Assembly (NCBI RefSeq): GCF_019209905.1 | Contig: NZ_JAHUTM010000001.1 | Coordinates: 310,001-374,000 of the forward strand | Direction: 5' to 3' | DNA length: 64,000 bases | Source: Corynebacterium sp. TAE3-ERU12 | Lineage (GTDB): Bacteria; Actinomycetota; Actinomycetes; Mycobacteriales; Mycobacteriaceae | In this document: positions 6,141-50,982 of the stretch, piece after piece | How positions within the stretch are numbered: the first letter of the stretch is position 1 | How the letters are laid out: the number at the start of each line of letters is the position of its first letter | The notes under the pieces: generated by a model | Seen by the model: only the letters and a program-made list of their open reading frames with translations | The model's database searches: none | Told to the model about the DNA's origin: nothing | Position numbers and translations under genes: made by a program

Positions 6141-6273
6141 CCGGGCAGAGTTCGGCGCGGTCAGCCGACGCGCTACAGCACAAAGCACACAAACACAGTC
6201 ACGCACGAACGCACGACATCATCCCCCGCACGAAAAGCAATAATTATTGCCGCGGGGGGAAAGGGATATTCAG

Positions 6274-10236
<3,963 letters not shown>

Positions 10237-10253
10237 GCCTAGCGCCTAAGCAC

Positions 10254-10299
10254 AAAAAATCCGGCCCCGCCTCAACTATCGAGGCAGGGCCGGATTTTT
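10254..10299. terminator. Bidirectional terminator after rpoC
   Basis: AAAAATCCGGCCCCGCCTC pairs almost perfectly with GAGGCAGGGCCGGATTTTT across a 7-base loop. Runs of A on one side and T on the other let it serve both rpoC and the convergent minus-strand gene ending at 10318. Confidence 0.92.
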
Positions 10300-10317
10300 G
10301 TTATGCGGGATAAGTGC

Positions 10318-10998
10318 TTAACGACGGGCCGGGCGGCGCACAATATCCACCCCGCCCAGCACCGCCCAACCAGTAAACCGAATCAGCGGCGCATCTGAGG
10401 CCACCTCACACATAGGCCGCGCCCCCGCCTGATCCGAACAATCGAACCCCCCGAACAACCCGACACCGTCCATCGCGATCCGCACATCATCGGGAACAAT
10501 AATGTCCGCCCCGCCCATCACGGCGACCACATTGACCGTGGTCTCCTGGGCCTCCAGGCTCACATTGGTGAGATCAAGATCCACGCCACCAAACAGTGTG
10601 CACGCCGTGTGCTTCCTCGGCAGGTTCCACGACGCGGTGCGCTCCGCCCCAGAAAAAAACGCGACGGTGGTCGTCGGGCCGAAATTTTCCCCAGTCACCG
10701 GCAGCGAAGCAGCGGCTTGCGACTGCACCGGGAAAGTCGGCGTCGCCCGCAACGCCACCCTGTCCGAGTAGGCCGCCGTGCCCGGGCTGAGCAGGCGATC
10801 CGGGTCGGCGTGGACGTCGGCAAGCAAGTCAGTGAGATCAGAAACCGTAACTGAGGCGGTCACCTCCGCGCTGCGCTGCTCGAACTCCTCCATCGTGAGC
10901 TGGCCGCGGGCGTAGGCCTGGGCTAATTCATCAAGCACAATGCTGCGCTGATCATCGCTCGCGCGCAGCGGGCGACTCTTGCCGTCATCAGTAGCCAT
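10318..10998 (-). CDS. DUF1707 / LiaF-like C-terminal domain protein
   Basis: A 226-residue protein. The N-terminal 60 residues (RASDDQRSIVLDELAQAYARGQL then TMEEFEQRS) are the DUF1707/SHOCT-like module common in Actinobacteria. The C-terminal part (about 140-226), with glycine-rich strands such as TLFGGVDLDLT and VVAVMGGADIIVP, resembles the cell-wall-active antibiotics response domain of LiaF/VraT proteins. No clear membrane helix is seen, so it may be cytoplasmic or peripheral. The start is the ATG at 10996-10998; the open frame continues upstream without a plausible start. A role in envelope stress is inferred from the family only. It carries one copy of CTTGCCGACG (complement, 10815-10825). 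Confidence 0.8.
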   Translation of the reverse strand: MATDDGKSRPLRASDDQRSIVLDELAQAYARGQLTMEEFEQRSAEVTASVTVSDLTDLLADVHADPDRLLSPGTAAYSDRVALRATPTFPVQSQAAASLPVTGENFGPTTTVAFFSGAERTASWNLPRKHTACTLFGGVDLDLTNVSLEAQETTVNVVAVMGGADIIVPDDVRIAMDGVGLFGGFDCSDQAGARPMCEVASDAPLIRFTGWAVLGGVDIVRRPARR

Positions 10999-11127: not shown

Positions 11128-11553
11128 GTGGCAGAGTTTGGTGAGCCCGCACAGCCGGAAAGTTTCTCCCGCTTCGCCGACGCCGACGCAGGCGCAGGCC
11201 GCAGTAGTGCGCCATTGCAGGTCATAACCGGGCCGTGGCATTGGGTCAGCGCAGCCATAGTCAGCGCCGCGATCGGTGTGTGCCTGGGGGCGGCCGCGCC
11301 GATGGTCGCCACCGCCACCGATTCCCTGTGGGCCGTACTGGCGTTGACCGGGTGGATACTTGCTGGTGTGGTGACGTTTGTGCTCGTTGGTGTGCACACC
11401 ATCGCCGACACCCAACGCCAAGCCGCCGGCCCCTACCTGTCGACCCCAGCCCAAGAATGGTTGTACCGGGTAGCGATTGTGGTGGGGCTGGCCGGTGTGG
11501 TGCTCACCGCCATCGAGATCGCCATGTGGGCAGCAAAGACAGGGGTGCTGTAA
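11128..11553 (+). CDS. Small multi-pass membrane protein, first gene of the tubulin-like/GTPase operon
   Basis: A 141-residue protein with a hydrophilic N-terminus of about 38 residues, then three hydrophobic segments (WVSAAIVSAAIGVCLGAAA, LWAVLALTGWILAGVVTFVL, VAIVVGLAGVVLTAIEIAM). I do not recognise a family. The start is GTG 11128 because AAGGAGG ends five bases before it; GTG 11113 is in frame but lacks such a site. Its stop overlaps the start of the next gene (TAATG), so the two are translationally coupled. It probably forms a membrane component of the complex made by the following genes. Confidence 0.7.
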   Translation: MAEFGEPAQPESFSRFADADAGAGRSSAPLQVITGPWHWVSAAIVSAAIGVCLGAAAPMVATATDSLWAVLALTGWILAGVVTFVLVGVHTIADTQRQAAGPYLSTPAQEWLYRVAIVVGLAGVVLTAIEIAMWAAKTGVL

Positions 11554-13973
11554 TGCTGAAGCGCACTGCACGGCGCGTACTGGCGCTAGCGGCCACCGGA
11601 GTCCTGGTCGGCGCGATAACTGCTGGTGGGGCGAGCGCCCAGCCCGCCCCCAATGATGCCCCAGAGGCTTTCGCTGGGTGTATCGCCGGTGCCCATGCCG
11701 CAGACATTCTCATCGTCATGGACGAATCCGAATCCCTGGTCGGCTTCGCTGGGGAACAAGCCACCGACCCATCAGCGGTGCGGGTGAAGGCGGCCACCGA
11801 CTTCGCTCACCATATGGCCGCCCACGCAGCGGCCACCGGGGCCGATATCTCCGTCGCCATTGCCGGGTTCGCCGATGATTACCGCACCCACAGTGGCTGG
11901 ACGACGCTGCGCCACACAGACCAAGGCAGCAATATCGACGCTGCTATCGCGGAATTCACCGAGCGCACCGACGGTTCATACACCAACTACGAAGCAGGCC
12001 TAGCCGGGGCTTTCCGGGACCTATCCCAACGACCCAGCACCTGCCGGGCGGTGCTGTTTTTCTCCGACGGCCAACCCACCGCCAGCAGCTACGGCCAGCC
12101 CATGGAACCGGTCTGCGCAGCCGACGGGCCGGTGGCCAAACTGCGCTCCAGCGGCATTCGGGTATTCACCATCGGGCTGGGCCCGGACACCGCAGAAACC
12201 ATGCAACCCATCGCAGCGGGGCAGTGCTCTGCTGAGGCCCCTAATGGTGTGCACCTGCAGGCCGATGAGCCCGCCGCGCTCTACGCCGCTTTTCGCCGCA
12301 TGATCCCCAACGGCGCCCATGATGTCCGCGATGGTGGGCCCGCCACCGACCCGTACCGGTTCACCCTCGACGAATCGACCCAGCCGGTGCGCCTATCCGT
12401 CCAACCGGACCGCACCATCGCCATGGGTGCGCTCATTCCGACGCTCACCCCGCCCGGTGGGCAACCAGTAGACCTTGCCGACGGTGCCCAGCGCATCGCA
12501 GGCGCTGAGGTCACTGTGCAGCGCAATGCTGAGGTGCCCGGCATGGTGGATGCTGACCTGCGCCGCGCCGCCGATGGGGAGTGGGCAGGGCAGTGGAGCT
12601 TCGGCTACCGCATTGCCGACGCTAGTGCTGAGCAGATGACCTACCGGGCGGTGCTGACCGTCATCCCGGGTCTTTCCCTGGTTGTGCCCGGTGCGGAAGA
12701 CACCGAGACCATGAGCGTGTCGAGTAGCGATTCCCTCCCCGTGGAGGTCCGCGACCCCGACGGGCAGGTACGCGCCTTTGCTGGGCAAGCCCGCCTGGAT
12801 GCGGTGCTGCGCCCAGATGACGGTTCCGCACCGGTCGATATCGCCCGTGGGGTAGACCTGCGCTCAGGTGCTGGCGAAGTCGAGTTCAGCAGTATCGACG
12901 GCCGGGCGGCCGGGGTGCTCGAACTGAGCTTATTCATCACCACCGCCGGAGGTGAAGGTGTGCCTGGCACTGCCCTGAAGCCGCTGACTTTTAGAAAACC
13001 TATCTCGGTGGCACCAGCTACTGCGCCGAAACTTCCTGGCTCGGTTGTGTTGGAGATGACCGGAGTAGAGGCCAGTACGCCCATCGAGTTCACCGGCCCC
13101 GGTGCGGTGTGGATCGACGATGGGGAATTCAGCGTCGGTGATGCCGTGGTGAACTACACCTCCGACCATGACGCAGCCGCCCCGCTCACCCTCGGCCCCG
13201 GGGAAACCGGCACCATCATTGTGCGTACCAGCACTGCTGATCCCATCGACCGGGTGATAGCTGACTCCGCGCTTGAGGTCACCGCCCAGGACTCCGAATC
13301 CGGGGCGACCGAGGTCGTCCAGCTGCCGCTGCGTGGTTCGCTCAGCGCGCCCATCAACACCACTGTCTTCGGGATCGCCTTAGTTGGTGCCCTGGTGCTG
13401 GCGCTGGCCATCCCGCTGGTGGTGCTCTACGCCATGAAATACCTCGCTGGCCGGATTCCGCGCAGCCCGGGCGTGCTGGCGCTGCGCATCCCAGTGCGTC
13501 GGCACGCCGGAGAATTAGTGCGCACCGATACTGGGGGAGTCTTCACCGTCGACTTCGATGAGGTGGTGCGCGCCCCACGCACCACCAGCACCGGCCGGTC
13601 CATTAACCTTGCCGGCACCCAGGTGCGGGTGCGTGGCGGGCTGAACCCGCTGCGCCCGCCGATGGCAGTAGCCGAGCACACCCCGTCTATTGCCGATGAT
13701 GGTGCCCGGCATGCCGGTGCTGCCCAGTTGCCGCTGGCGGTACACAACCACTGGTTCGTTCTGCCTGGGGAAGTGGTGGTGGCAGTGGATGAGCGAATCC
13801 GGCGCGAGGCGCTAGCCGCTATCGTCGCCGATATCCGTGCCCACGCCCCGCAGCGTCTGGAAACGATCGGCGACAAAGCCACGCAGGCCCCTGAACCCAC
13901 CGCCCCGGCCAGGCGCACCGGTGGTTTCGTTGACAATGGGCCCAACCCGTTCGGCGATTCTGGTCGTCGCTAG
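11553..13973 (+). CDS. Secreted, membrane-anchored vWA-domain protein
   Basis: An 806-residue protein. A Sec signal peptide (residues 1-29, cleavage after AGGASA) leads into a von Willebrand A domain whose metal-binding MIDAS reads DESES near residue 57. This is followed by about 350 residues of beta-rich extracytoplasmic sequence, one membrane helix (about 604-628, FGIALVGALVLALAIPLVVL), and a cytoplasmic tail of about 175 residues with a basic start. The topology suggests a surface sensor or adhesion domain coupled to cytoplasmic partners. The ATG at 11553 overlaps the previous stop. The next gene encodes the tubulin-like protein. The family-level vWA assignment is firm; the ligand is unknown. 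Confidence 0.8.
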   Translation: MLKRTARRVLALAATGVLVGAITAGGASAQPAPNDAPEAFAGCIAGAHAADILIVMDESESLVGFAGEQATDPSAVRVKAATDFAHHMAAHAAATGADISVAIAGFADDYRTHSGWTTLRHTDQGSNIDAAIAEFTERTDGSYTNYEAGLAGAFRDLSQRPSTCRAVLFFSDGQPTASSYGQPMEPVCAADGPVAKLRSSGIRVFTIGLGPDTAETMQPIAAGQCSAEAPNGVHLQADEPAALYAAFRRMIPNGAHDVRDGGPATDPYRFTLDESTQPVRLSVQPDRTIAMGALIPTLTPPGGQPVDLADGAQRIAGAEVTVQRNAEVPGMVDADLRRAADGEWAGQWSFGYRIADASAEQMTYRAVLTVIPGLSLVVPGAEDTETMSVSSSDSLPVEVRDPDGQVRAFAGQARLDAVLRPDDGSAPVDIARGVDLRSGAGEVEFSSIDGRAAGVLELSLFITTAGGEGVPGTALKPLTFRKPISVAPATAPKLPGSVVLEMTGVEASTPIEFTGPGAVWIDDGEFSVGDAVVNYTSDHDAAAPLTLGPGETGTIIVRTSTADPIDRVIADSALEVTAQDSESGATEVVQLPLRGSLSAPINTTVFGIALVGALVLALAIPLVVLYAMKYLAGRIPRSPGVLALRIPVRRHAGELVRTDTGGVFTVDFDEVVRAPRTTSTGRSINLAGTQVRVRGGLNPLRPPMAVAEHTPSIADDGARHAGAAQLPLAVHNHWFVLPGEVVVAVDERIRREALAAIVADIRAHAPQRLETIGDKATQAPEPTAPARRTGGFVDNGPNPFGDSGRR

Positions 13974-14020
13974 GCCCACGTCGGTGCCAAGCTGTAGGCA
14001 AACCCAAGGAAGGGACAATC

Positions 14021-17000
14021 GTGCAGAAATACCTCGTCGTTGGTTGCGGCGGCTCGGGCGCTAAAACCCAGGCCTACATGATGGACCAGCTCAAGGCCCA
14101 CATGCGCCAGGTCGACCCCGAACGCAGCACCCTGCCCGCGGCGTGGCAGTTCGTCTCTATTGACGTCCCCCTGGTGCCCGAAGCCGGCCCGGACGGGCTA
14201 CCCAATGTCGCCCAGGCCGGTGGGGCCTATATCGATATCGGCAGCCGCCTGCATTACAACGACTTCGAACAGGGCCTTACTGAGCAGCTCGGGGCGTCCG
14301 GGGCGCTCGGTGAGATCGCCACCTGGGCCACCCGCAACCCCGAGGACCTCAATACGCCCATCAGTGATGGTGCCGGCCAGTACCGCGGTATTGGCCGCAT
14401 CCTCACCATCCAGAATTTCGCCAAAATTCAGCGCGAACTCACCGCCGCCATTGACCGGCTCAACCTGGTGTCCACCAACCAGGAACTTAACGACCTCAAT
14501 TACGCCATCACCGGCAAACACAGTGATTCCAGCGATGACCAGCCAGTCACCATCATTATTGGTTCGATGGCTGGTGGCTCCGGTGCGTCGATGGTGTTCG
14601 ATGTCGCCCGCCTGTTGTCCACCCTGGGCAGTGTGAAACCCGCGCACACCGCGATTTTTATGCTCACCCCGGAGGTGTTCGAGGCCATTCCGCGCGACAA
14701 GATGGTCGGGTCCTGGCCGAATGCCTTGGCAATGTTTGGGGAGGCCTTCGCCGCCCAGACCGGTGCCGGCGCTGACCACGACCGGGCCCTGTACTCCGCG
14801 ATGGGGCTCCCCGGAGCCCCGCAGGACAGCACTTTTGCCCGCCTGTTCCCCATTGGTGCCCGCATGGGTGGCCAACGCGCCCGTTTCGGCGACGGCACCC
14901 CCAACGCCATCTACCGCGGGTTGGCGCGCGCGCTTGCCGCCCTGGTTTCTTCGCAGACCGCGTCCTCAGATTTCAAGTCCTATGCCCTGGCGAATACGGG
15001 TTCCACTGCGGGTAACCGGTCCGTGCTGGGCTGGGGTAATCCCAGCAAGGTGGCCTGGGACAAGGTTCCGTGGGGCTCACTGGGCTACGCCCAACTGTCC
15101 ATGGGACGCGACCGTTATGCCGAATACTGTGCCCAACGCCTCGCCCGGGCGGCTTTCGATCGGTTACGGCGCGGCCATATCGACCCCGCCGATCCGGCCA
15201 CCGGAAAAGAACAGCTCGACCGCAGGGTCGCCGATGTGCTTGCCGACGTGCTGGGCAACTGTTCCCTGCCGCAGCGGCTCGACCGGGGCATGGGGGCTGA
15301 GGACACCGAACAGTGGTTGGCGCGTACCTTCACCACCCGCTACGCCCGCCCGGCGGCCACCCACGCAACCCGCCAGGTGCGTGATGTATTGCCGGCTGGT
15401 GATGGGATGAAGTCCACCGAATGGGCCGCGTTGGTGCGCACCCGCCTGGCGGATCTGGCCCGCCCGGTCGATACCGCCTTGGCGGATAATGCCTATGCCG
15501 CAGTGCACGCTTTCGCGGATTTCCTCGCCGACGCTGTGGTCGAGCAGATGGAAACTGTGCTGTCCACCACCGGCGTGCCCTGCGCTAGTGAGGCATTGGA
15601 CCGCGTTACCGCGCTGGTCAATGAGGAACTGTTGCCGGCGGTGCAGGCCTTTGCCGATAGTCGCCGGGGGATGAACCCCACCGCTATTGGTCCGCAGGTT
15701 CAGGCGCAGCTGCAGCCGCTGTCTGGTCGGGGCACGATAGCTTCCTCCGCCCAGCTTGCCGACGCTATCGCCGCGGCCTACCAGGACCAGTTTGAGGACT
15801 ATCACCTGGGGCAGGTCGCCGCCCAGCTGGTGCCGGTGCTTGAGGATCTGCGCCCGGAGCTTCTCGCCCCGCTGCGCCGCGAATTCGATGCCCTGCACGC
15901 TGACCTGGCCCGGGCCGCGGCGGTGCAGGATGTGCACGTCAATCTTGCCGACGTTGCCACTGACGAACCCAATGCCTGGCCGGCTGATACTGATGAGCAG
16001 ATCAACCGTCGTTTCGTCGGCAGCGCCAATGAGATTGTGGTCAGCGATACCAGCCGGTTCGCCGCCGATTATGAGGATCATCTCATCGCCACAATGCGCG
16101 CCGAACACCCGGACCTGCGCAGCCTGGATGAGGCCGTTGACCGCGCCGCCCGGGAGGTTATCGCCGGCCAGTGGCATACCCAGGGCGCGCGGCGGGCCCC
16201 GCATGACACCTTGTGCCCACCGCCGGGCGATATCACCGTCGGCAATCGCAGTGGTTGGGTGTCGAAGCACCTGGTGGCCTCACCGATAAATGAGGACAAG
16301 CGGGAGGCCCGCCCGGCGCGGTTTTCCGCCCGGCTGCGCCCGCGTGATCTGATGGAGCGCACGCGGGCGTGGATTGCCCGCCCGGATCAGCCTTTCGACC
16401 GGTTCATTAGTGTGGACCTGCGTTCCTATTTGAGCCCGAGCACGGCCAGTAATGAGGCCGAGCATGATGCTCGCGTCACCCGGTTGCGGGGCGCGTTTGT
16501 GCAGGCAATGCGCCTGGCCCGGCCGCTGGCTGCGGTCGATACCGCCACCTTGGGTCTGGCGCATGGTGTGTCCGCGGAGGAGTACCACTTCAACTTTTCT
16601 GAAATCCCCCTGGCTGGGCTCAATGCCGCTACTGACCTGCGCGATGTCATTGTGGCCGATAAGTACCGCGATGAGGCGACGCTGACGACCTTCGATAATG
16701 CGTGCACTGATGACCGCAAGGTGTTCAGCATTGATGTGTTTGGTTCCTACCCGAACTACTCACCAGTGGTGTTTAGTTCCCTGTTCCCACACATCATGGA
16801 GGACTGGAGTACTCGCGGTGAGCTCACCGAGGGTTTCTGGAATCTGCGCCGCGCCCGCCCGCTGCCGGCTGCCTTGCCGTTGACTGATGATGCGCGCCGG
16901 GCGATGGTGGCTGGCTGGATTGTGGGCATGATTACTGGCCGGATCACCATTGTTGATGAGGGCACCCCGACGGCGGCGGCGCATATTTATGACCCGGCAG

Positions 17001-17656
17001 CGACCCCCTCGGGCGGGCAGTGGGTGAGTTTCCCGCCGCAGTTGTTGACCCCGCCGTCACGGTTCCAGGCTCGGTTCGACTGGATGCCGGCGATTATTGA
17101 GTCAGTGTTGTTGGCTTATGCCGATGTGCAGACCGCGCCGGTTGGTGGCCGGGTGGGGGACTCCCTGCGGCCCTATATCCTGCTGCGCTCGTTATATGAC
17201 GATAATCCGAGGGAGCCGACCACCGGTGCCATTGAGCACAGCGCCACCAGGTTGTTGGCGCAGTGGTTGCGTACTGGTGAGGACCCGCGTTTTTCCACCG
17301 GCAGTCCGCTGGGCGCGACATTAGAGCAGCGGCGCGATGCAGCCCGCCAGGCCCTGCAGACCGCTCGTGATAATGCCGCGCATTTCCGGGCCGGTGCGGC
17401 GGCTGCGGCCCTGCCCGGCCAGGAGGAGCAGGCTCGCCCGTGGGCGCAGGTGCGCGACCGTCGGTACGCCTCGAAGATGCCGCTGTACCGGGACTTAGCT
17501 GATGATGTGTTCGGTATGGCCACTGATTTATTGGGCCGCCTGGACCGGGCCGCGGATTTAGCGACCCGGCCAGAGCAGGCCCCGGGGGTTCCGGGTAGCT
17601 TCGCGGTCGACCCGGGCGGGCCGGATGGGGTGGACTTCGGCGGAGGCCTGTTCTGA
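14021..17656 (+). CDS. Tubulin-like (Tubulin_2-type) nucleotide-binding protein
   Basis: A 1211-residue protein. The N-terminus LVVGCGGSGAKTQ (residues 5-17) is a Gly-rich nucleotide-binding loop as in FtsZ/tubulin, and GSMAGGSGAS at 181-190 matches the tubulin signature loop (GGGTGSG in FtsZ). This fits the bacterial 'tubulin-like' family (Pfam Tubulin_2). The remaining 900 residues are largely helical and lack membrane segments. The GTG start has AAGGAAGGGA upstream. The stop overlaps the next ATG (TGATG). Whether it polymerises or only binds GTP is unknown. It carries three copies of the CTTGCCGACG word. Confidence 0.8.
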   Translation: MQKYLVVGCGGSGAKTQAYMMDQLKAHMRQVDPERSTLPAAWQFVSIDVPLVPEAGPDGLPNVAQAGGAYIDIGSRLHYNDFEQGLTEQLGASGALGEIATWATRNPEDLNTPISDGAGQYRGIGRILTIQNFAKIQRELTAAIDRLNLVSTNQELNDLNYAITGKHSDSSDDQPVTIIIGSMAGGSGASMVFDVARLLSTLGSVKPAHTAIFMLTPEVFEAIPRDKMVGSWPNALAMFGEAFAAQTGAGADHDRALYSAMGLPGAPQDSTFARLFPIGARMGGQRARFGDGTPNAIYRGLARALAALVSSQTASSDFKSYALANTGSTAGNRSVLGWGNPSKVAWDKVPWGSLGYAQLSMGRDRYAEYCAQRLARAAFDRLRRGHIDPADPATGKEQLDRRVADVLADVLGNCSLPQRLDRGMGAEDTEQWLARTFTTRYARPAATHATRQVRDVLPAGDGMKSTEWAALVRTRLADLARPVDTALADNAYAAVHAFADFLADAVVEQMETVLSTTGVPCASEALDRVTALVNEELLPAVQAFADSRRGMNPTAIGPQVQAQLQPLSGRGTIASSAQLADAIAAAYQDQFEDYHLGQVAAQLVPVLEDLRPELLAPLRREFDALHADLARAAAVQDVHVNLADVATDEPNAWPADTDEQINRRFVGSANEIVVSDTSRFAADYEDHLIATMRAEHPDLRSLDEAVDRAAREVIAGQWHTQGARRAPHDTLCPPPGDITVGNRSGWVSKHLVASPINEDKREARPARFSARLRPRDLMERTRAWIARPDQPFDRFISVDLRSYLSPSTASNEAEHDARVTRLRGAFVQAMRLARPLAAVDTATLGLAHGVSAEEYHFNFSEIPLAGLNAATDLRDVIVADKYRDEATLTTFDNACTDDRKVFSIDVFGSYPNYSPVVFSSLFPHIMEDWSTRGELTEGFWNLRRARPLPAALPLTDDARRAMVAGWIVGMITGRITIVDEGTPTAAAHIYDPAATPSGGQWVSFPPQLLTPPSRFQARFDWMPAIIESVLLAYADVQTAPVGGRVGDSLRPYILLRSLYDDNPREPTTGAIEHSATRLLAQWLRTGEDPRFSTGSPLGATLEQRRDAARQALQTARDNAAHFRAGAAAAALPGQEEQARPWAQVRDRRYASKMPLYRDLADDVFGMATDLLGRLDRAADLATRPEQAPGVPGSFAVDPGGPDGVDFGGGLF

Positions 17657-20364
17657 TGTCCGATGCGATTGTGGTTCTTGGCGCTGGGCCGGGCCCACGC
17701 GCGGTGCGGTCATGTCTGCTGGATATGGCGGCGCTAGGGCTAACCACACCGGTGTACTGGGTCGATCCCACCGGGGACCCGGCAGGGCCAGCGGCGGTGG
17801 AGTGCATTGCGCATGCCGAGGCAGGCGGCGCCCAGGTACGGCGGATGAGCCTAAGCCACGCCACCCGCGCGATGGGCCGGGGCCGGGTTGTGCTCATTGC
17901 TCTCGATGAGCCTGATGGGGCCGGTTCGACGCTGGATACCGCGGGGGTGCGTGGCTTCACCGACGCCATTGACCATATTTTGCCGGCCGCGGCGCGGCGG
18001 GTGCATCTGTACCTGCCTCGGTTGCCGCTACCGCAGCAGCCGCCGACGACCATGCCTGGGTGGACGTTATTGGTGGTGTCCCCGGAGGACAGTGAGGCGC
18101 CGGATGCGGCCCGGGAGGTGCAGTACCGCGCCGATGGTCCGGATGCTTTGGCCCGCTATGTCACCCCTGCTGTGGTGGGGATGACGGGATTATGGGCGCA
18201 TAGCACCGGGGTGCCGGTGTGTGATGCGCAGACCTCACCGGTGACTGGGGAGGTGGGTGTTGATGCGGAATCGGCCCGCCTGGTGCGGGTATTCCACCGC
18301 CATATTGATGCCACCGAGGTCGAGCGGGAACTGCGGGAGCGGGTGTTGGACGTGCGCTCAGCGGTGCCGCAGCCGCGCCTGGCCGATGGTCGCCATATCG
18401 TTACCGCCGATAATCCGGCAGAACTTAACCGTCGGGTTGCTGATTCTTTTATGGCCCGCGCTGAGACCGAAGGCGCCCGGCCACCCCAGACCACTGTTCC
18501 CGGTGGGGTCGATGCCGGCGCGGATGGGTTTTTTAGCCAATTCACTGAGTACGTCACCGGTGCTGTGCTGGGTAACTCAGGCCGGTGGTTCGACACCGCC
18601 ACCGCCACCGCTGATTGCGAAACCAGCACCGCGGTCCATAGGGCGCTGGGTATTGCTGAGGAGTCGGCCGCTCCCGACCCGTGCGTGCGGGTGCTTACCA
18701 GTTCGCGCCCACAGAGCCTGCACAGTGTTGCTGATGCGGCCGCGTCCTTACGGGAGCAGTTGAGCACCAGTGACGCCATCGTCGTCGGGCCGCCCCCGAC
18801 TGCGCCAGCGTTGTGGCGCACCTACACCGCAACCACGTTAAGCCTGGTGGACGGCAAGGAACGCGACAGTAGTCTCGGGCCGGTCCGCGATAGCAATACC
18901 AATCCCGTTGTGGTGCCCCGGCCTGGTCTGGCCGCCCCCGATGTGGCCGATAGTTTTTCCGGCGACCACCCAACCCTGCGGGAGCTGCTGGGGGACTCCC
19001 TCGGCCCGACAACTATTAGCCCGGTCGACCCGCATGGGGCCGCCCATTACGCTGCTGCGTTGCAATACGCGGCCAGTCAAACCACTGACCAGTCCATTGC
19101 CACGAAAAAACGCGAGTTCACCAATTGGCGCCAGCAGCACGCATCGAGTTTCGCCTGGCAGGTGGGCCAACGTCTAAGTGGTGCGATCCAGGACGGCCAG
19201 GACCGCGCCCGCGCGGCCTATAAGGACGTGCTCACCACCCGCGCCGCACTTGGGGCTTTCGCCGGTGATGATGACGCTGCCGCCCACCGTGGCTTGGCGC
19301 GCACCATGCGGGCGGTGCTGTTGGTGTGGTTGGTCGTGGTGGTGGGGTGCCTGGCCGCGGCGCTGCTGAGCCCCCGGGTGGCGTTCGCGGCTGGTGTGGG
19401 CACTGCGGGTGTGGCCACAGTTATTGCGTTGCTGGCTGAGCTGGCTATTTTCGCCCGTGGCCGAGATGCGGTGGTGGACCGCGTGTCACGTCGGCGGGCT
19501 GTGTGGCGCCGGCACAGTGCAGCTGCTGGCGCATTCGTTGCTGCCGTGACTGACCTTGAGCGCGCTGCGGCGGCTTACCGGCAGCATCAGGTGTGGAGCA
19601 CCATTATTGGCCGGGCCATCCACCATCCCTTCGGTGCTGGTTGCGCTGAGGAGCGTCCGGCGCTGTTGCCGACGGCGGGGCTGCCTCGGGCCAGCATTAT
19701 TGGCACCGCGCAACCGGATGCTGTTGCTATGCGCCGGGCTGTGCAGGACCTCCGGGCGACGGTATTCACCCCGGATTGGGCGGATATAGCTGTTGCTGAT
19801 CTGCTTGCGGCGGCCAGTGCGGAGTTGGAGCAGCGCGGCGAGTTCGTGCCGAGCCGTTCGGAGTTATTTGGCCAACCGGCTGCCGGTGCGCATTCGGTGC
19901 TGTGCCGGCTGGCGGAAGTCGCCAGCGATGATGGTCTGCCGCGTGGCGATAGTGCCCAGGTGTGGTCCCCGGCGGTGGCCAGTTATGTGTCCTCTGGGCA
20001 GGCCGAGGCGTTGCTGGAGTCTGTGCGCAGCATTGATGATGGCCAGCCGGTGGAGCTTTCCCGAGCCGATGTGCTTGCCGACGTTCTGGGCACAACCGAT
20101 GCTGGATTTTTCCGTGGCGCGGTTTCTGCTCGTGGCGCCAATCATGGCGCGGTAGAGGTCGACCCCGCGGCGAGTGTGTGCGCCCGCTACCCGGATCTAT
20201 CCGCCGGGTCCGGGGCGGCGCCACGAGCGGCGACGCTGTCCCAGGCGGTGACTGTGGTGCAGTGTGGCCATAGTGTCCGGCCGGAATGGTTCACTGGGGC
20301 TACAGTGCAGCACACCGCCGAGCCGGACTTGGAGTTGCCGGGTCAGCGCGACAGCCTGTTTTAA
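17656..20364 (+). CDS. 902-residue membrane protein of the tubulin-like/GTPase operon
   Basis: I do not recognise a named family. The N-terminus (VVLGAGPGPRAVRSCLLDMA) looks like a Rossmann-type or degenerate nucleotide-binding loop, followed by alternating beta/alpha sequence. Two adjacent membrane helices lie at about 550-570 (AVLLVWLVVVVGCLAAALL) and 576-600, after which about 300 residues appear cytoplasmic. No signal peptide is seen, so both large domains probably face the cytoplasm with a hairpin in the membrane. It overlaps the tubulin-like gene by one base and precedes the beta-repeat gene with AGGAGG between. It could tether the tubulin-like protein to the membrane; that is inference. 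Confidence 0.65.
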   Translation: MSDAIVVLGAGPGPRAVRSCLLDMAALGLTTPVYWVDPTGDPAGPAAVECIAHAEAGGAQVRRMSLSHATRAMGRGRVVLIALDEPDGAGSTLDTAGVRGFTDAIDHILPAAARRVHLYLPRLPLPQQPPTTMPGWTLLVVSPEDSEAPDAAREVQYRADGPDALARYVTPAVVGMTGLWAHSTGVPVCDAQTSPVTGEVGVDAESARLVRVFHRHIDATEVERELRERVLDVRSAVPQPRLADGRHIVTADNPAELNRRVADSFMARAETEGARPPQTTVPGGVDAGADGFFSQFTEYVTGAVLGNSGRWFDTATATADCETSTAVHRALGIAEESAAPDPCVRVLTSSRPQSLHSVADAAASLREQLSTSDAIVVGPPPTAPALWRTYTATTLSLVDGKERDSSLGPVRDSNTNPVVVPRPGLAAPDVADSFSGDHPTLRELLGDSLGPTTISPVDPHGAAHYAAALQYAASQTTDQSIATKKREFTNWRQQHASSFAWQVGQRLSGAIQDGQDRARAAYKDVLTTRAALGAFAGDDDAAAHRGLARTMRAVLLVWLVVVVGCLAAALLSPRVAFAAGVGTAGVATVIALLAELAIFARGRDAVVDRVSRRRAVWRRHSAAAGAFVAAVTDLERAAAAYRQHQVWSTIIGRAIHHPFGAGCAEERPALLPTAGLPRASIIGTAQPDAVAMRRAVQDLRATVFTPDWADIAVADLLAAASAELEQRGEFVPSRSELFGQPAAGAHSVLCRLAEVASDDGLPRGDSAQVWSPAVASYVSSGQAEALLESVRSIDDGQPVELSRADVLADVLGTTDAGFFRGAVSARGANHGAVEVDPAASVCARYPDLSAGSGAAPRAATLSQAVTVVQCGHSVRPEWFTGATVQHTAEPDLELPGQRDSLF

Positions 20365-20382
20365 CCCTAGGAGGTGCCACCA

Positions 20383-22503
20383 GTGCCCAGTCCCCATCAG
20401 CCGCAGCGGCCCGCCGAGTCCGGTGCTGAGCTGTCCCGGATGCCGCAGTACCTGATCGATAAGGTCGCGGCCCTCGGCGCTACCTCCACTGAGGCCATTC
20501 GGCGCACGCTGCCGCCGAGATATCAGCATTTAGCCCCGGCATTGGCGCAGCGGTTAGGTATTGGTGAACCTGCGGCCACACCGGAACACGAACCCACCCC
20601 AACCCCCACCCCAACCCCGGAGGAAGGCCCGGTGCCGGTGCCGGCGCCGGCTGCGTCGGCACGCAATAAGGTCGCCGAGGCGCTGGCGGATTTCGTATCC
20701 GCCGCGTCCAGTGCCCCTGCGGTGGACCCGGATGATGTCCTCACCGTCGACCCCAGCCTCTTTGCCGACTATGACCACAGCGCCACTGTGTCCGCCGCCG
20801 CTGAATTGGCGCTCACCACGTATCGCAGTGGCGGGGCCGAGCAGGTTGTGCTGCGGTGGGACACACCGGATTGGGTGGACCACGATTACGTCATCTACCG
20901 CGTCATTGCCGGGGACGGGGAGCAGGAATTATCCCCCGAAGCCGGGGAGCAAGTGCTGTGCACCACTGGCCATATTTATGTTGAACCCCAGGTCAGTGGG
21001 GTTAGTTTCCGGCATTTCCAAGTGTGGGTGCACCAGGGGCCCGATATCGCCGCCGCCCTCGGCGCCCAGCCGCAGTTAGTGGGCTACGCCATCGCCGTCG
21101 CCCCGGTGCGCGCGATTACGCTCGCCGCCAGCCAGGGTGTTGTTGAGGGGTCGTGGGCGCCGATGCCGCCTGATTGGTCGGTGCGGGTGCACGCCAGCCC
21201 TGCCGGTTCGGCACAGCCCGCCGACGCCCCGGAGTTCCTGTTGGGCTCTGGGGTGCAGGAGACCTCTTTTGCGCACCGGCCTCCCACCCGCGGCGGGACG
21301 TGGCGGTATGTGTTCACCCCGGTGGTGCGGTTAAGTGGCGGCTGGCACCTGGGGGAGCCCAGTACTGTGCACAGGGCGGATATTCCGGCGGTAACGCGGC
21401 CGGTCAGCCTGGATTTTTATGATGTCGAGCAGCACGGCGGCGATGACCGGATTGTGTTGTCGTGGTGCGCCCCACCGGCGGGTTCGGTCAGTGTCTACCT
21501 CACACAGCGGCATCCGCATGAGGATCTCAGCCAGGGCCCGATTTCTGCTGATGCGCTTGCCCGCGATGAGGTTTTTGCCGCCGCAGGCACGACGAAGGTC
21601 ACTGTCGGCCCGCGCGAAGAAGGCGCCCCAGTCGATGCGGACACCATTTGGCCGGTCGATGCCGATACCGCCGAGGCCTGGTCGGTTGTCTATATCACCC
21701 CGGTCACTGAGGTCGGGGAGATGGTTGCGGTCGGCCCCACGGTGGCTTTGCACCAGGTCCAGCCGATTTCTGCGGCCCGGATCGCTGAGCGGATCGATAC
21801 TCAGGTGGTGTCTTTCGCCTGGCCGCGGGGCGCGGATTTCGTCAGTATTGACATCACTGATCTGGGGGCCGGTACCGGCGGGCAACGACGTCGGGTAGCT
21901 GACCTAGAACCCGATGACTATAAGAACAACAGTGGGGTGCGCCTGGGCCTCAACCCATACGGCAATGACGTTATCCTCACCCCGTATGTGATGTACCAGG
22001 GCCGCACCACCAGTGCGGAGCCGACGGTGCTGAGTTATCCGGGGCTGCGTCGCTACCGGTGGCGGATGCTGACCGACCCGACTGCGCTGCGGATTCAGGT
22101 GTGGACGGACAGTTCTGCTGATGTAAATCCGCCCCGGCTGCAGTTAGTGCACCACCCCGACCGGTTGCCGTTGTGCATTGCCGACGCCGCCGACGATGGG
22201 GCGGGGGTGTGCACGGTCATCCCGGTGGACCCAGACACCGGCCAGCCCAGCGGGCCGGCCGGGACGGTGCTCGCCCCGGACACGTTGCCGGGGGTGACTT
22301 CTGGTGCCGGCGGGCAGTCCGCCGCCGCGACGTGGCTGGTGCCTGCTAGTGCACTTAGTGGGATGCGCCCGGGCCAGTTCTTCCGCCTATTCCTCGTTGC
22401 TGATGATGAGCCCGGCGCCACCACCCGCCGCCGGGTGCTGGTCGATAATGATGCCGCGGCCGGGATTTACCAGCCGCCCAGCAGGTGGGGGAAGCGGCGA
22501 TGA
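20383..22503 (+). CDS. Beta-sandwich (fibronectin III-like) repeat protein of the GTPase operon
   Basis: A 706-residue soluble protein. Residues 1-60 are a helical N-terminus, followed by a Pro/Thr linker (PTPTPTPTPEEGPVPVPAPA) and then several segments with fibronectin type III-like strand spacing (VVLRWDTPDWVDHDYVIYRV, RIVLSWCAPPAGSVSVYL, VVSFAWPRGADFVSIDI). No signal peptide or membrane segment is present, so these domains would be intracellular, which is unusual. GTG 20383 is favoured because AGGAGG (20369-20374) is eight bases upstream; GTG 20374 lies within that site. The stop overlaps the next ATG (ATGA). A scaffold role is inferred. Confidence 0.6.
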   Translation: MPSPHQPQRPAESGAELSRMPQYLIDKVAALGATSTEAIRRTLPPRYQHLAPALAQRLGIGEPAATPEHEPTPTPTPTPEEGPVPVPAPAASARNKVAEALADFVSAASSAPAVDPDDVLTVDPSLFADYDHSATVSAAAELALTTYRSGGAEQVVLRWDTPDWVDHDYVIYRVIAGDGEQELSPEAGEQVLCTTGHIYVEPQVSGVSFRHFQVWVHQGPDIAAALGAQPQLVGYAIAVAPVRAITLAASQGVVEGSWAPMPPDWSVRVHASPAGSAQPADAPEFLLGSGVQETSFAHRPPTRGGTWRYVFTPVVRLSGGWHLGEPSTVHRADIPAVTRPVSLDFYDVEQHGGDDRIVLSWCAPPAGSVSVYLTQRHPHEDLSQGPISADALARDEVFAAAGTTKVTVGPREEGAPVDADTIWPVDADTAEAWSVVYITPVTEVGEMVAVGPTVALHQVQPISAARIAERIDTQVVSFAWPRGADFVSIDITDLGAGTGGQRRRVADLEPDDYKNNSGVRLGLNPYGNDVILTPYVMYQGRTTSAEPTVLSYPGLRRYRWRMLTDPTALRIQVWTDSSADVNPPRLQLVHHPDRLPLCIADAADDGAGVCTVIPVDPDTGQPSGPAGTVLAPDTLPGVTSGAGGQSAAATWLVPASALSGMRPGQFFRLFLVADDEPGATTRRRVLVDNDAAAGIYQPPSRWGKRR

Positions 22504-23954
22504 GCGGGGTAGACGTACTGACCTACGCCAGCCACGCCAGTGGGTGGTCGGTGGGGCACCACTCGGCGGGGTTGCAGCCTGACGAGATCGCCCGGCTGGC
22601 CGAATGGGCGCCGACCAGGTTGGCGACCACGACCCCCATCCCCGCTTATCCTTCGGCTGCTGAGGTGGCGTGCTTGCCGCGTCGCACCGCGTGGCTGCCG
22701 GCGCCGTGGGGAGGCGCTGACCGGGTGTTTTTCCATTCTGTTCCGGCTGGGGCGGATGGTTCGGGCCGTGCGGGCAATATTTATACCCAGGCCCATATTG
22801 TGCGCGGTAATGCCGCCGGGCAATGGCGGCCTAGTGATGGTTTCCACAGTCCTTGTCTGCGCACGCCGTTCGGGGTGGTGGAGGTCAATGCCGCGCGCCC
22901 GGATGCGGTGGTGCCTGCCGACGGCCCGCTTGCCGACGCGGCAGCTGTCTGGTCTTTTATTTTCGATCCTGGGCCGGTGGACCGGCGTGCTGTCTTAGCG
23001 GCGATTATCGATGCGTGGGTCAGTGGGGCAGTGGTTGCCATCGCCTGCCCGCCGCAGCAGGCCGAAATATGGATCGCGGCCCTGCTGCACACAACATCGG
23101 CGCAGGTAGCGCGAGAAATATCGTTTTCTTCGTGGCAGCGTGCAACCAGCCTGGACGCGTTATTGCACGAGGATCTGCGTCTTGTGGCGATCCCGCCGGA
23201 GGATATGGCGCAAGCGTCCCGCCAGCCTGGTGTGATTGTTGTTGATACCGCTGTTTCTCCTGCGACTGGAATCTACGGTCAGCGGCCCACTGTGCTCAGC
23301 GATGGCACCGAGCTGGAGGTCTCGGAGTGGTCAGAGTTGCTGGTCAATATCTGTTTCAGCGCCGCTGATGCAGTGGCTGCGAGTACCGGGGCCAGCGGGG
23401 GCGGTGGTGGGCTCGCCACGCACCCGGCGGGAATGCTTGCTGCGGTAGCCGAGGCGAGTCCGGAATTGCGCCAGGAACTAGCCCAGCCGCTGCGGTGTGT
23501 TCGCGCCGGTACCACGGCCGATCCCGCACCGGCGTGTTCGCTTGCGCCGCTGGTTGCCGCGCAGGTCCGCGCGATCAGTGCGGATACGCTGCGCAGCGTT
23601 ATCGCTGACCCGCACCTGTGTGGTGCTGATGGTGAACGCGTCGGCCTGCTGGGTGATATTTTGCGCCTTGACCCGGCCGGTGATGCCCTTGTCGAGCGCG
23701 CCCAGCAGCGGATTCTCGCCGCGGCGTTGGTGGAGATGTGCCGGGATGGCGCCACCAGTGGGGTGGATTATTTGCCGTGGTGGCGCGCCGAATATGTCAG
23801 TGCCGCGCAGCGGGCTGGGGTTGCCGCGTCCGTGGCGGAGTGTCTTGGCGCCGACCCGGCCGCAGGTGCCGCGCTTGGTGAACTCGCCACTGCCCCCGGC
23901 CCGAATGGGCGCCGACTGCTTGCCCAGGCCGCCTATGATCGGCTGACTGGATAA
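22500..23954 (+). CDS. GTPase-associated protein 1 (GAP1-N2)-like
   Basis: A 484-residue soluble protein. The first 150 residues follow the pattern of the GAP1-N2 family (GTPase-associated protein 1, N-terminal domain type 2): an early YASHASGWSVGH segment, spaced prolines, an Arg before a Phe-His strand (DRVFFHSVPAGADGSGRAGN) and a following His. These proteins are found beside TRAFAC-type GTPases, as here (the GTPase is two genes downstream). The middle and C-terminal parts are helical. The ATG at 22500 overlaps the previous stop by four bases. The family call is by pattern recognition, so moderate. Confidence 0.6.
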   Translation: MSGVDVLTYASHASGWSVGHHSAGLQPDEIARLAEWAPTRLATTTPIPAYPSAAEVACLPRRTAWLPAPWGGADRVFFHSVPAGADGSGRAGNIYTQAHIVRGNAAGQWRPSDGFHSPCLRTPFGVVEVNAARPDAVVPADGPLADAAAVWSFIFDPGPVDRRAVLAAIIDAWVSGAVVAIACPPQQAEIWIAALLHTTSAQVAREISFSSWQRATSLDALLHEDLRLVAIPPEDMAQASRQPGVIVVDTAVSPATGIYGQRPTVLSDGTELEVSEWSELLVNICFSAADAVAASTGASGGGGGLATHPAGMLAAVAEASPELRQELAQPLRCVRAGTTADPAPACSLAPLVAAQVRAISADTLRSVIADPHLCGADGERVGLLGDILRLDPAGDALVERAQQRILAAALVEMCRDGATSGVDYLPWWRAEYVSAAQRAGVAASVAECLGADPAAGAALGELATAPGPNGRRLLAQAAYDRLTG

Positions 23955-23968
23955 CTGAGGAAAACACC

Positions 23969-24952
23969 ATGTCGATGATGTCTTTACGCCCTGGCCGGGC
24001 TACTGCGATCAGTGCCCGTGGAATGGTGCATGTCGAAGCGCACCCGATTGGCGGCACTGAGCCTGTTGTGGTGGATATTCGCGGCGCTGCGACGGTGAAC
24101 CGGGTGAGTGCCTCGGCGGTGAAGATCATCCGCCCGACAGGGGTGCTCGAGATTGTGGTGCGGCCCGAATCCGGTGGGGTTTTCGGTCCCAACCAGGCGG
24201 TATTGGCCCGGGTGGTGCGTGGCCGCCTCGGTACCCCAGGTGCGACTGGGGTGGAGTTGCCCCGCGCTGTGGTCGATGGGTGCGGTGAGTACATTCTTGG
24301 CACGCTCACAGTCGATGGGGACCAGTTGCAGGTGGCGGCCCCCGGTGCCGGCGGCGGCACTATCGAGGGGCCGGCGGCGACTGTGCGTGCGGGGTTGCGG
24401 GCACGCCTTGGTGCGGCTGGGTCTGGCCTCGGCGAGGCCGGCGGGCGCGGCGTGCCGGTGGTTGTGCATGTGGACGCTTCCGCGTCGATGATGAGCCCTG
24501 ATGTCGCCGCCATGGTCGACTATGCCGCCGAGATCATTGCCGGCACTATCGCCGCCCTGCCCGAGGTGCCCAGCATTGAGGTGCACAGTCGCGGCAGCAC
24601 TCACCACGTCGATACCGGCGCAGAACTTATTGGTGTGGTGCGCCAGGAAATCCACGCCGGGCGGTGTCGGATCGGTGCGCTGGAAAACCTGCCCAGCCAG
24701 CAGCCGCAGGGCGGTGCTGGGGCGCTGGTGTGGTGTGTGTCGGACGCTGTGCCTGCCGCGATTCGCTCCGGGGCCACCAGTGCGGTGGCGCTTGTGCTGG
24801 GTGATGCCGATACTGTTGCCGGGCGCACTGAGGTCGCCGTCGATAAGCAGCTTGCGCGTGCGCTTGCCGACGGTGATATCTGCGGTGCCGAACACCTCAT
24901 CGACGCGGTGCTGACTGCCCTGCCTGGGACGTCGGAAGGAGACCGCCAGTGA
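23969..24952 (+). CDS. Cytoplasmic vWA-domain protein of the GTPase operon
   Basis: A 327-residue protein without a signal peptide. Residues about 1-140 form a beta-rich N-terminal domain; about 160-320 form a vWA fold with the MIDAS motif VDASASM near residue 168. Cytoplasmic vWA proteins commonly work with NTPases. Here it sits directly upstream of the TRAFAC GTPase and overlaps it by four bases (GTGA), which suggests stoichiometric production and interaction. AGGA lies before the ATG. It is a second, independent vWA besides the secreted one at 11553-13973. Confidence 0.72.
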   Translation: MSMMSLRPGRATAISARGMVHVEAHPIGGTEPVVVDIRGAATVNRVSASAVKIIRPTGVLEIVVRPESGGVFGPNQAVLARVVRGRLGTPGATGVELPRAVVDGCGEYILGTLTVDGDQLQVAAPGAGGGTIEGPAATVRAGLRARLGAAGSGLGEAGGRGVPVVVHVDASASMMSPDVAAMVDYAAEIIAGTIAALPEVPSIEVHSRGSTHHVDTGAELIGVVRQEIHAGRCRIGALENLPSQQPQGGAGALVWCVSDAVPAAIRSGATSAVALVLGDADTVAGRTEVAVDKQLARALADGDICGAEHLIDAVLTALPGTSEGDRQ

Positions 24953-25962
24953 CTATGCCCACTGCCGCCGGGGCGGTAACTCGCTGCCCCTATACCTTCA
25001 AAGAAATTCGTGACCCCCGGTACCTGCAGTTTTTGCAGCAGAATAAGGGCCTGCCGGCTGACTGGGGCGATAGCGGCACCATATGCATTGCAATGGCCGG
25101 GGCGCGGGCGTCGGGCAAGAGCTTGTATATCGCCGTGGTGGTCAAACAACTAGCCCGGCTGCTGCAGAAACACCATCTGCCGCTCATTCCGATGGGGGAT
25201 ACCGGCCAACGCTACCGCGACCACTATGAGCATTCCCTTTTCGCCGAAATGGGGTTGCTGCGGCCCACCCCACGGATGGCTGCCGACGACGCCTATCACC
25301 GCGATCCGCTGATCTTCGATATCGGTAATTGGGACTGCGGTGGCGGTGAGCGCAAACACTATCTGGTGCTGCGCGATGTGGCTGGCGAGGACTTAGAACA
25401 ACTGCCTGATAACCCATCTGCGCTGGAGTTTTTCCAGCATGCCGACACGGTGCTGTTCCTCTTTGACCCGCTGGGGGTGCGCCGAATCCGCACCTATTTG
25501 AAGGGGCGGGTGGTCATGCCGCATGTGGGCGGGGACCCCGTGACAGTGCTGAATAACCTGCTGCGGGTGCTTGGCGGGGCCCGGCCGCCCTTGGCGGTGG
25601 CCTTGTCGAAATTCGACACCCTGCAGGAACTGGAGTTCAGCGGCGATACCGACTGGACTGAGATTATGGCCAACTACGGGGCGGCCTACCGGCGCGATAG
25701 TGATCTGGAATTCGGTGCCGCGGATTCACATCTGCTCGACGCGGAAATCCGGTCCATGTTGCTGCGGCTCAATGCCCACGATGTGGTCTACACCATCGAG
25801 TCCTGCTACCGGGACGCGCCGACATCATTTCGGTATTTCGCGACCTCGGCGCTCGGGGCGCCGCCGAAGGGCTCCCGCGTGGATGCGAGTAAGGGCATTG
25901 CACCATTTCGGTGTTTAGACCCCATTTTGTGGACATTAACCCGCAATGGCCTGCGAGTTTAA
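24949..25962 (+). CDS. TRAFAC-type P-loop GTPase, last gene of the operon
   Basis: A 337-residue protein with a Walker A loop GARASGKS (residues 51-58), a G3-like DVAGED (about 144-149) and a G4-like LSKFDTL (about 219-225, in place of NKxD). This fits the TRAFAC GTPases that accompany vWA and GAP1 proteins in actinobacterial multi-component systems. An N-terminal CPY segment (residues 13-15) precedes the GTPase fold. The start is GTG 24949 overlapping the previous stop; ATG 24955 is an alternative. It ends the operon. The next feature is one base later, an inverted copy of the 11-base word. Confidence 0.75.
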   Translation: MTMPTAAGAVTRCPYTFKEIRDPRYLQFLQQNKGLPADWGDSGTICIAMAGARASGKSLYIAVVVKQLARLLQKHHLPLIPMGDTGQRYRDHYEHSLFAEMGLLRPTPRMAADDAYHRDPLIFDIGNWDCGGGERKHYLVLRDVAGEDLEQLPDNPSALEFFQHADTVLFLFDPLGVRRIRTYLKGRVVMPHVGGDPVTVLNNLLRVLGGARPPLAVALSKFDTLQELEFSGDTDWTEIMANYGAAYRRDSDLEFGAADSHLLDAEIRSMLLRLNAHDVVYTIESCYRDAPTSFRYFATSALGAPPKGSRVDASKGIAPFRCLDPILWTLTRNGLRV

Positions 25963-26221: not shown

Positions 26222-26593
26222 ATGCCCACTATTCAGCAGTTGGTCCGTAAGGGCCGCCACGACAAGAAGTCGGCGACCTCGACCGCCGCGCTGAAGGGTT
26301 CGCCCCAGCGCCGCGGCGTGTGCACCCGCGTGTACACCACCACCCCGAAGAAGCCGAACTCGGCTCTTCGTAAGGTCGCGCGTGTGCGTTTGACCTCCGG
26401 TATCGAGGTTTCCGCCTACATCCCGGGCGAGGGCCACAACCTGCAGGAGCACTCCATGGTGCTCGTCCGCGGCGGTCGTGTGAAGGACCTGCCGGGCGTG
26501 CGCTACAAGATCGTCCGAGGTTCCCTCGACACCCAGGGTGTTAAGGACCGCAAGCAGGCCCGTTCCCGCTACGGCGCGAAGAAGGAGAAGTAA
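26222..26593 (+). CDS. rpsL: 30S ribosomal protein S12
   Basis: A 123-residue protein, [12 protein letters not shown], with the decoding-centre loops [13 protein letters not shown] and [15 protein letters not shown]. The lysines at positions equivalent to E. coli 43 and 88 are present, so the sequence shows the streptomycin-susceptible form. It begins the str operon, with rpsG two bases after its stop. Confidence 0.98.
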
Positions 26594-26595
26594 GA

Positions 26596-50980: not shown

Positions 50981-50982
50981 TT

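Follow-up and report, generated by a model that had tools for sequence, protein, structure and literature searches.

An eight-gene actinobacterial operon encoding a tubulin-like protein, a membrane protein modelled like tubulin and a predicted GTPase switch

A 64,000-nucleotide stretch of the Corynebacterium sp. TAE3-ERU12 genome (contig NZ_JAHUTM010000001.1, positions 310,001 to 374,000), here called the window, contains an operon of eight co-directional genes, g1 to g8, at positions 11128-25962 of the + strand (14,835 bp). Our best explanation of these genes is a constant, membrane-tethered tubulin/GTPase machine that would serve a Ter-type response to envelope stress or attack, a predicted function to which we assign a probability of roughly 0.45. 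As far as the accessible part of their description goes, the GAP1-N2/DO-GTPase systems include an actinobacterial theme with tubulin, and the operon is a member of this published class (PMC7159879). Relative to an initial annotation made from the sequence alone, the two most informative additions are that the predicted structure of the g4 protein resembles tubulin and that TerD and other Ter genes are located beside the operon in other genera. In the literature accessible to us, this class of systems is so far known from gene neighbourhoods only. With the predicted membrane-anchored, tubulin-like partner, an odd list of genes now contains a pair of proteins that can be tested biochemically, and a concrete hypothesis of purpose is offered for the first time by the Ter linkage. 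The eight genes are as follows (TM, transmembrane).

g1, 11128..11553, + strand: small membrane protein of 141 amino acids with three hydrophobic segments
g2, 11553..13973, + strand: exported vWA protein of 806 amino acids (Pfam VWA, E = 2e-10; hydrophobic segments; motif)
g3, 14021..17656, + strand: tubulin-like protein of 1211 amino acids, Tubulin_2/FtsZl1 (Pfam, E = 1.8e-41; AlphaFold2; VIA-align)
g4, 17656..20364, + strand: membrane protein of 902 amino acids with a TM hairpin at residues 553-593 (AlphaFold2; VIA-align)
g5, 20374..22503, + strand: fast-evolving protein of 709 amino acids (homologues occupy the same place)
g6, 22500..23954, + strand: GAP1-N2 protein (GTPase-associated protein 1) of 484 amino acids (PF20013)
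g7, 23969..24952, + strand: vWA-like protein of 327 amino acids with no clear TM segment (DASAS motif)
g8, 24949..25962, + strand: TRAFAC-type DO-GTPase of 337 amino acids (P-loop GARASGKS; DVAGED; SKFD)

Gene set, distribution and descent

Each of the eight open reading frames (ORFs) has a single, terminal stop codon. Four of the seven junctions overlap, by 1 base (g1/g2 and g3/g4) or 4 bases (g5/g6 and g7/g8), while the remaining three are separated by 47 (g2/g3), 9 (g4/g5) and 14 bases (g6/g7). The initial annotation had thus given the right extent, 14.8 kb, and orientation of the genes, and had counted one overlap too many with its five. Pfam contained no accepted family for the window copies of g1, g4, g5 and g7, and a search of NCBIfam with the eight proteins yielded just weak matches, far under the cut-offs.

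For the comparison of gene sets we used 122 loci: the window, 40 loci from the genus sample, one Rhodococcus plasmid and, from named genomes, the 80 best of a total of 156 relatives. An iterated profile search and removal of near-identical copies gave 99 distinct loci. Of these, 88 had the full set of eight genes with an identical order, and the remaining 11 lacked genes just at an end that coincides with the limit of the contig or of the fetched sequence; a g1 homologue was located ahead of g2 in 95 of the 99. The eight genes are one unit that travels together, a point on which the initial annotation had staked its interpretation.

Tubulin_2 and GAP1-N2 were found in an identical set of 46 of the 151 genus genomes. 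Tubulin_2 was not found in the other 105 and was scarce in the phylum sample, with 6 of 198 genomes when the window's own is counted. Corynebacterium glutamicum, a harmless species that is easy to handle and was included as a control, matched both families, and the operon is known there from these two families alone. Among the best 80 of the 156 named relatives, the closest to g3 were from Corynebacterium, and relatives of the operon were also present in mycobacteria and rhodococci.

In a tree inferred from g3 the sequences clustered by bacterial family with few exceptions, the main groups being Corynebacterium, Micrococcaceae/Microbacteriaceae, Propionibacteriaceae, Mycobacteriaceae and Nocardiaceae/Gordoniaceae. 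The tree was built with FastTree, has long branches and is midpoint-rooted, and its fine placements were for this reason left unused. From the grouping by family we read the descent of the operon as old and mostly vertical, with many losses. Two loci are likely mislabelled or misbinned: L102 has Rhodococcus in its title and is labelled Cyanobacteriota by the tree tool, and a Solirubrobacterales metagenome-assembled genome is the source of L137, a contig of 3.6 kb that is placed inside the mycobacterial g3 branch.

We also considered that the operon might be a mobile element, with reference to the differing neighbours between groups of loci and to the relatives on plasmids; this is countered by the grouping of the g3 tree by family. 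A g3 relative was present in 2 of 72,556 plasmid records, both from Rhodococcus, and one of these, the 1.39 Mb megaplasmid of Rhodococcus sp. JS3073 (L072), carries the whole operon along with several TerD genes. No g8 relative was found in phage records.

The median pairwise identities across the 88 complete loci were 0.43 for g8, 0.37 for g3, 0.29 for both g1 and g2, and 0.19-0.26 for g4 to g7. Since g8 and g3 have the highest identities and near-universal nucleotide-binding motifs, both presumed nucleotide machines are, by this measure, strongly constrained, and the other genes are freer to vary. The correlations of distances between genes were 0.79-0.97, which fits joint inheritance, although shared ancestry alone also yields high values.

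The tubulin-like protein g3 and the membrane protein g4

The tubulin-like nature of g3, first proposed from two glycine-rich loops, was confirmed by a match to Tubulin_2 (PF13809) of 143 bits against a cut-off of 27. The loops correspond to the nucleotide loops T1 (GCGGSGAK) and T4 (MAGGSGAS). The T4 pattern was present in all 99 distinct loci and the T1 pattern in 98, the lone miss being L137, which begins past that stretch. An AlphaFold2 model of residues 1-1190, based on an alignment of 66 rows, had a predicted local distance difference test (pLDDT) score of 90.2 and a predicted template modelling (pTM) score of 0.82. The initial annotation would have given up its tubulin claim had no such fold been predicted, and in VIA-align the model matched CetZ with Z = 20.5 over 320 aligned residues and tubulins with Z = 18.7-19.7. 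These alignments run from model residue 1 or 2 to a position between 934 and 1068. Because they extend this far, the modelled fold appears to be complete, with an N-terminal GTPase domain and a C-terminal activation domain that are split by a long helical insert at about 385-840 (limits judged from the secondary structure).

The g4 protein, initially annotated as a two-helix membrane protein, does contain a hydrophobic hairpin (residues 553-593), which lies inside a long helical insert. Its AlphaFold2 model covers 902 residues, is likewise based on 66 aligned rows and has a pLDDT of 88.5 and a pTM of 0.81. Ranks 1 to 34 in VIA-align were all tubulin or FtsZ, at Z = 9.3-8.2, and the best other match had Z = 7.7. 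With 211-257 aligned residues, they begin at residue 1-3 of g4 and end at about 874-893; on the side of the tubulins they reach from residue 1-3 to about 390-418. In the model, the N- and C-terminal alpha/beta parts on either side of the insert together resemble the tubulin fold. The columns that are invariant or almost so across the 66 rows include no glycine-rich loop of the T4 type (GGGTGSG), so that g4, if a tubulin, would be a pseudo-GTPase. The case is a structural one, since sequence methods gave nothing, and on the strength of the model we think that g4 is quite probably a diverged, membrane-anchored pseudo-tubulin.

Several results weigh against these structural interpretations. For g3, the best rows in Foldseek were FtsZ at E = 1.5e-3, with none at E <= 0.001, and no tubulin was named when PDB sequences were searched with its profile. 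In the putative T7 stretch of g3, which follows the putative helix H7, position 388 is Q in 35 and D in 24 of the 66 rows, and position 391 is N in 46 and D in 9; the window has D at both. The stretch was placed by helix order rather than by superposition. Since the acids expected in the catalytic T7 loop are not conserved, it is unsure that g3 turns over GTP and polymerises dynamically. In the tubulin heterodimer, alpha-tubulin supplies catalytic acids to beta-tubulin, and by analogy a partner could supply those of g3.

For g4, the alternative is an alpha/beta and helical membrane protein unrelated to tubulin, the Rossmann-like halves of which align by common topology; this is compatible with any of the readings of the operon as a whole. 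It would account for the missing sequence signal: a profile search of PDB sequences gave no similarity to tubulin, and hhalign comparisons of g4 with g3, using whole profiles and single domains in both local and global mode, gave none between the two proteins. Foldseek returned no match at E <= 0.001 and no tubulin among the 50 matches listed. The non-significant rows against the PDB were headed by long-helix pore-forming proteins, and no significant match was obtained against viral models. Moreover, KRAS chains align to the first 194 residues of g4 with Z = 6.7-6.9, and a VIA-align score may reflect no more than a common arrangement when Z is under 8 or, in models that consist mostly of helices, under about 13; g4 is rich in helices. 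On the other hand, tubulin and FtsZ fill ranks 1-34, with alignments across both ends of g4 and scores above those of unrelated rows, the g4 gene adjoins g3, and the accessible text on the firmicute systems describes two tubulin genes (PMC7159879). We therefore regard an unrelated g4 as improbable.

A g4 profile searched against the 198 phylum-sample genomes retrieved the window's own genome and two weak partial matches. Five distant Tubulin_2 loci from that sample (L164-L168) were inspected for genes in corresponding positions. In L164, L165 and L168, the gene that follows the tubulin gene encodes a protein whose TM segments lie in mid-chain, and a vWA gene with TM segments precedes the tubulin gene in L164, L165, L166 and L168; the gene behind the tubulin in L166 is a helicase on the opposite strand. 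The two-TM proteins at these loci had no significant similarity to g4. The triad of vWA, tubulin and TM-hairpin proteins may be an older core of the system.

The Ter neighbourhood and the proposed machine

Ter systems protect against phages and bacteriocins. Anantharaman and colleagues reportedly described, in 2012, Ter stress-response systems with TerD, TerC, a TerF/TerY vWA protein and PRTase-StiP. Ten flank genes of the operon loci were scanned, and one of them, beside the Williamsia operon, was TerD. A TerD-like ORF was present in the fetched flanks of 12 of the 99 distinct loci. To estimate the linkage, we assembled a set of 22 genomes or records, of which 12 were preselected for TerD in the flank and 10 were relatives without TerD in the flank. 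In 18 of the 22, the distance between a TerD gene and the operon was 10 kb or less, with 0.58 expected from the TerD density and 12 being preselected. Of the 10 that were not preselected, six were linked, one had TerD at a distance of 20 kb, one had TerD elsewhere and two had none. A further 16 operon genomes contained four with TerD, two of them linked. In sum, TerD lies within 10 kb of the operon in 20 of 24 TerD-bearing genomes or records, or 8 of 12 without preselection, counts that come from related genomes and hence not from independent samples.

The operon has such neighbours in Rhodococcus, Gordonia, Williamsia, Nocardia, Arthrobacter, Pseudarthrobacter and Salinibacterium. In three Gordonia loci (L109, L110 and L114) the sole TerD match of the genome follows the operon in the same orientation, at a distance of up to about 900 bases. 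A TerC/DUF475 gene and a gene for a PRTase_2-TRSP-StiP-PELOTA_1 protein, both of which we take to be parts of Ter systems, are near the operon in Salinibacterium (L160), and a protein of the latter kind is also encoded near the operon of Gordonia malaquae (L155). Given the occurrence of the operon among TerD, TerC/DUF475 and PRTase-StiP genes in several genera, its likely purpose is a Ter-type response to stress or attack at the envelope.

The other components fit the initial annotation in most respects, and the motifs that it named in g2, g3 and g8 are all in place. The g2 protein, taken to be a secreted vWA protein with one membrane helix, has an N-terminal hydrophobic segment (residues 9-27), a VWA match in Pfam, a metal ion-dependent adhesion site (DESES) at residue 57, one C-terminal TM segment (607-625) and a predicted cytoplasmic tail. 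The call of a cytoplasmic vWA protein was upheld in part for g7, which has DASAS at residue 169 and no clear TM segment; Pfam did not recognise a vWA domain in the window protein. Of the 24 members of the g7 alignment, four match vWA-TerF-like weakly (best E = 8e-4) and one matches VWA_2. DxSxS, searched for anywhere in the proteins and hence a rather loose indicator of the vWA metal site, was found in 86 of 96 g2 and 72 of 93 g7 sequences.

The g6 protein is a GAP1-N2 protein as annotated (PF20013, 48.3 bits against a cut-off of 24, E = 1.4e-12), and its match to GAP1-M (PF20014) is weak, at 16.7 bits under a cut-off of 24 (E = 0.0086). The assignment of g8 as a P-loop GTPase likewise holds: its match to DO-GTPase2 (PF19993), at 25 bits, is just below the curated cut-off of 27, but 17 of the 20 members of the g8 alignment, the window's included, match this family at E <= 0.01. 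The P-loop pattern is present in all 91 loci with g8 and AGED in 89, the two misses being cut short. Judged from these motifs, g8 is a DO-GTPase with a conserved glutamate in the Walker B motif (DVAGED), and equating this residue with the published one is our reading. CxxC, the mark of a zinc ribbon, is absent from the window g8 and present in 46 of the 91 g8 proteins, and every one of the 45 that lack it is from Corynebacterium.

A trans-envelope tubulin/GTPase machine, as the initial annotation had envisaged, is plausible. In such a machine, g4 would act as membrane anchor and pseudo-tubulin partner that holds g3 at the membrane, where the two would form a nucleotide-controlled assembly. The vWA protein g2 on the outside may report on the envelope or on an attacker, and the DO-GTPase/GAP1 pair (g8 and g6), together with g5 and g7, may set the timing at which the assembly forms and disassembles. 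The vWA proteins, g2 outside and g7 inside, would be metal-dependent adaptors, and g5 might read a fast-changing signal.

A more specific version of this proposal is tentative, and we think it rather doubtful in its entirety: a heteromeric actinobacterial tubulin system in which a membrane-embedded pseudo-tubulin, g4, anchors and perhaps stimulates an active g3, controlled by the TRAFAC GTPase/GAP1 switch and the outside vWA sensor, would supply the cytoskeletal part of envelope stress responses of the Ter type. If true, membrane-embedded pseudo-tubulins would join the cytoskeleton, and a widespread, poorly understood stress system would be tied to a cytomotive filament.

Published systems and alternative functions

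The actinobacterial GAP1-N2 systems were described as predicted conflict systems by Kaur, Burroughs, Iyer and Aravind (2020, eLife 9:e52696, PMC7159879), whose accessible text names three components of the actinobacterial theme: a DO-GTPase, a tubulin that has a helical domain at its C terminus, and a vWA protein bound to the membrane. In that text, a single tubulin gene is reported for actinobacterial systems and two for those of firmicutes. The operon in the window shares with these the DO-GTPase with a conserved glutamate, GAP1-N2, a single recognisable tubulin with a helical C-terminal part and the membrane-bound vWA protein. It differs in that the published system has two FNIII proteins, one of them with HRDC, neither of which Pfam shows here. 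FN3, which the initial annotation had named as intracellular repeats, and HRDC were sought in g5 in particular, and Pfam recognised neither in the 27 members scanned, the window's included; g5 is possibly the published FNIII(-HRDC) component nonetheless. The published GTPase 'usually' has two N-terminal zinc ribbons, not a strict rule, whereas the window g8 has no CxxC. In the accessible text on the actinobacterial theme, with its single tubulin gene, a g1-like protein, a g4-like TM-hairpin protein and a separate second vWA protein are unmentioned. TerD appears once in the main text, in another context, and neither the constancy of the eight genes nor a Ter link was met there (PMC7159879).

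For g3, the tubulin has been named FtsZl1 in the accessible part of an earlier study that noted vWA and GTPase neighbours and predicted a role in membrane remodelling (Makarova and Koonin 2010, Biol Direct 5:33, PMC2875224), and Tubulin_2 proteins are treated as divergent FtsZ-like sequences in what is accessible of a 2023 paper (PMC9871819). The operon resembles the FtsZl1 family, as described there, in the N-terminal Tubulin_2 domain, the extended helical region, the co-encoded vWA protein and P-loop GTPase and the membrane proteins. The accessible text reports no likeness to tubulin in the C-terminal part by sequence (PMC2875224), whereas alignments of the g3 model with tubulins, as noted above, continue up to 934-1068. 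CetZ, alpha/beta-tubulin and FtsZ have in common with g3 and, less surely, with g4 the predicted fold, but not the long helical inserts of both proteins, the TM hairpin and lack of conserved glycine-rich loops of g4, or the variable T7-like acids of g3.

A search of the literature, largely without subscription papers, yielded no experimental study of the operon and no mention of a second tubulin within it or of a link to TerD; in that scope, neither g4 as a second, hidden protein with a tubulin-like fold nor the proximity of Ter genes was met in print.

Against the proposed Ter-type machine it must be counted that PADLOC-DB 2.0.0 matched 0 of the 8 proteins to any system model at E <= 0.1, that DxSxS is missing in 10 of 96 g2 and 21 of 93 g7 sequences, and that no TerD was found in the window's genome or in 14 of 38 other operon genomes or records, among the TerD-negative searches being seven mycobacterial genomes. 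The Ter link is for this reason an association in part of the range of the operon, and since some genomes have the operon but no TerD, Ter proteins are to be regarded as a partner rather than a necessary part. Unlike in Ter systems, none of the eight genes is TerD, although some g7 relatives resemble vWA-TerF-like proteins weakly.

The patchy distribution and the fast evolution of g4 to g7 suit a conflict role. As proposed in the accessible part of PMC7159879, a fast-evolving FNIII/GAP1 component would recognise an invader, the DO-GTPase would switch, and a tubulin effector would assemble to block or kill the infected cell. Patchiness of the kind seen for Tubulin_2 in the genus and phylum samples, rapid divergence of g4-g7 next to slow g3 and g8, and the TerD neighbours are all consistent with this. 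However, the published systems have variable components and effectors, and no swapped effector was seen here, the eight genes being the same in each locus as far as its sequence reaches; the sequences of g4-g7 vary strongly, and genes outside the eight were sampled in part. The g3 tree follows the bacterial families, as expected for mostly vertical descent, there was no match in PADLOC, and the operon in the window sits in the rpoBC-rpsL-fusA-tuf cluster. We consider a conflict system of this type unlikely, though the foremost of the alternatives. The stress machine fits better than a rapidly changing weapon because the gene set is constant and the tree follows families.

A machine for membrane remodelling or vesicle formation, as put forward for FtsZl1 operons in the accessible part of PMC2875224, or an accessory of cell shape or division, in which g3 would polymerise on the membrane via g4 and bend or divide it, agrees with the predicted complete fold of g3, the predicted membrane-anchored partner and the exported vWA protein with its TM segment, but the T7-like acids of g3 are not conserved and the operon is dispensable for division, given the 105 genus genomes in which Tubulin_2 was not found, so that we hold it to be less likely still.

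The operon is located within the RNA polymerase-ribosomal protein cluster of the 2.2 Mb genome (6 contigs), as indicated by rpoB, rpoC and a reverse DUF1707/LiaF-like gene on the left side and rpsL, rpsG, fusA and tuf on the right. It interrupts this cluster, the two parts of which, rpoBC on one side and rpsL/rpsG/fusA/tuf on the other, lie in window positions 2544-10998 and 26222-30935. BLAST also identified rpoC relatives in the flanks of L041, L043, L044, L062/L073 and L071, and the other groups of loci have different neighbours. The rpoC-flanked loci amount to five other distinct Corynebacterium loci and belong to two deep branches of the g3 tree; the rpoC side is perhaps the ancestral site of the operon in Corynebacterium.

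Another flank gene family was present in 18 loci, nearly all of them mycobacterial, mostly upstream and on the same strand; the two examples that were scanned, from L092 and L113, contain DUF4190. Elsewhere in the window, an AT-rich stretch at 45675-58000, with a GC content of 0.48-0.57 from 46 kb on, contains a siderophore-like gene set that consists of a binding protein, two FecCD permeases, an ABC ATPase, IucA/IucC, a Lys/Orn monooxygenase and a pyridoxal-dependent decarboxylase, with an MFS gene alongside. This stretch was perhaps acquired.

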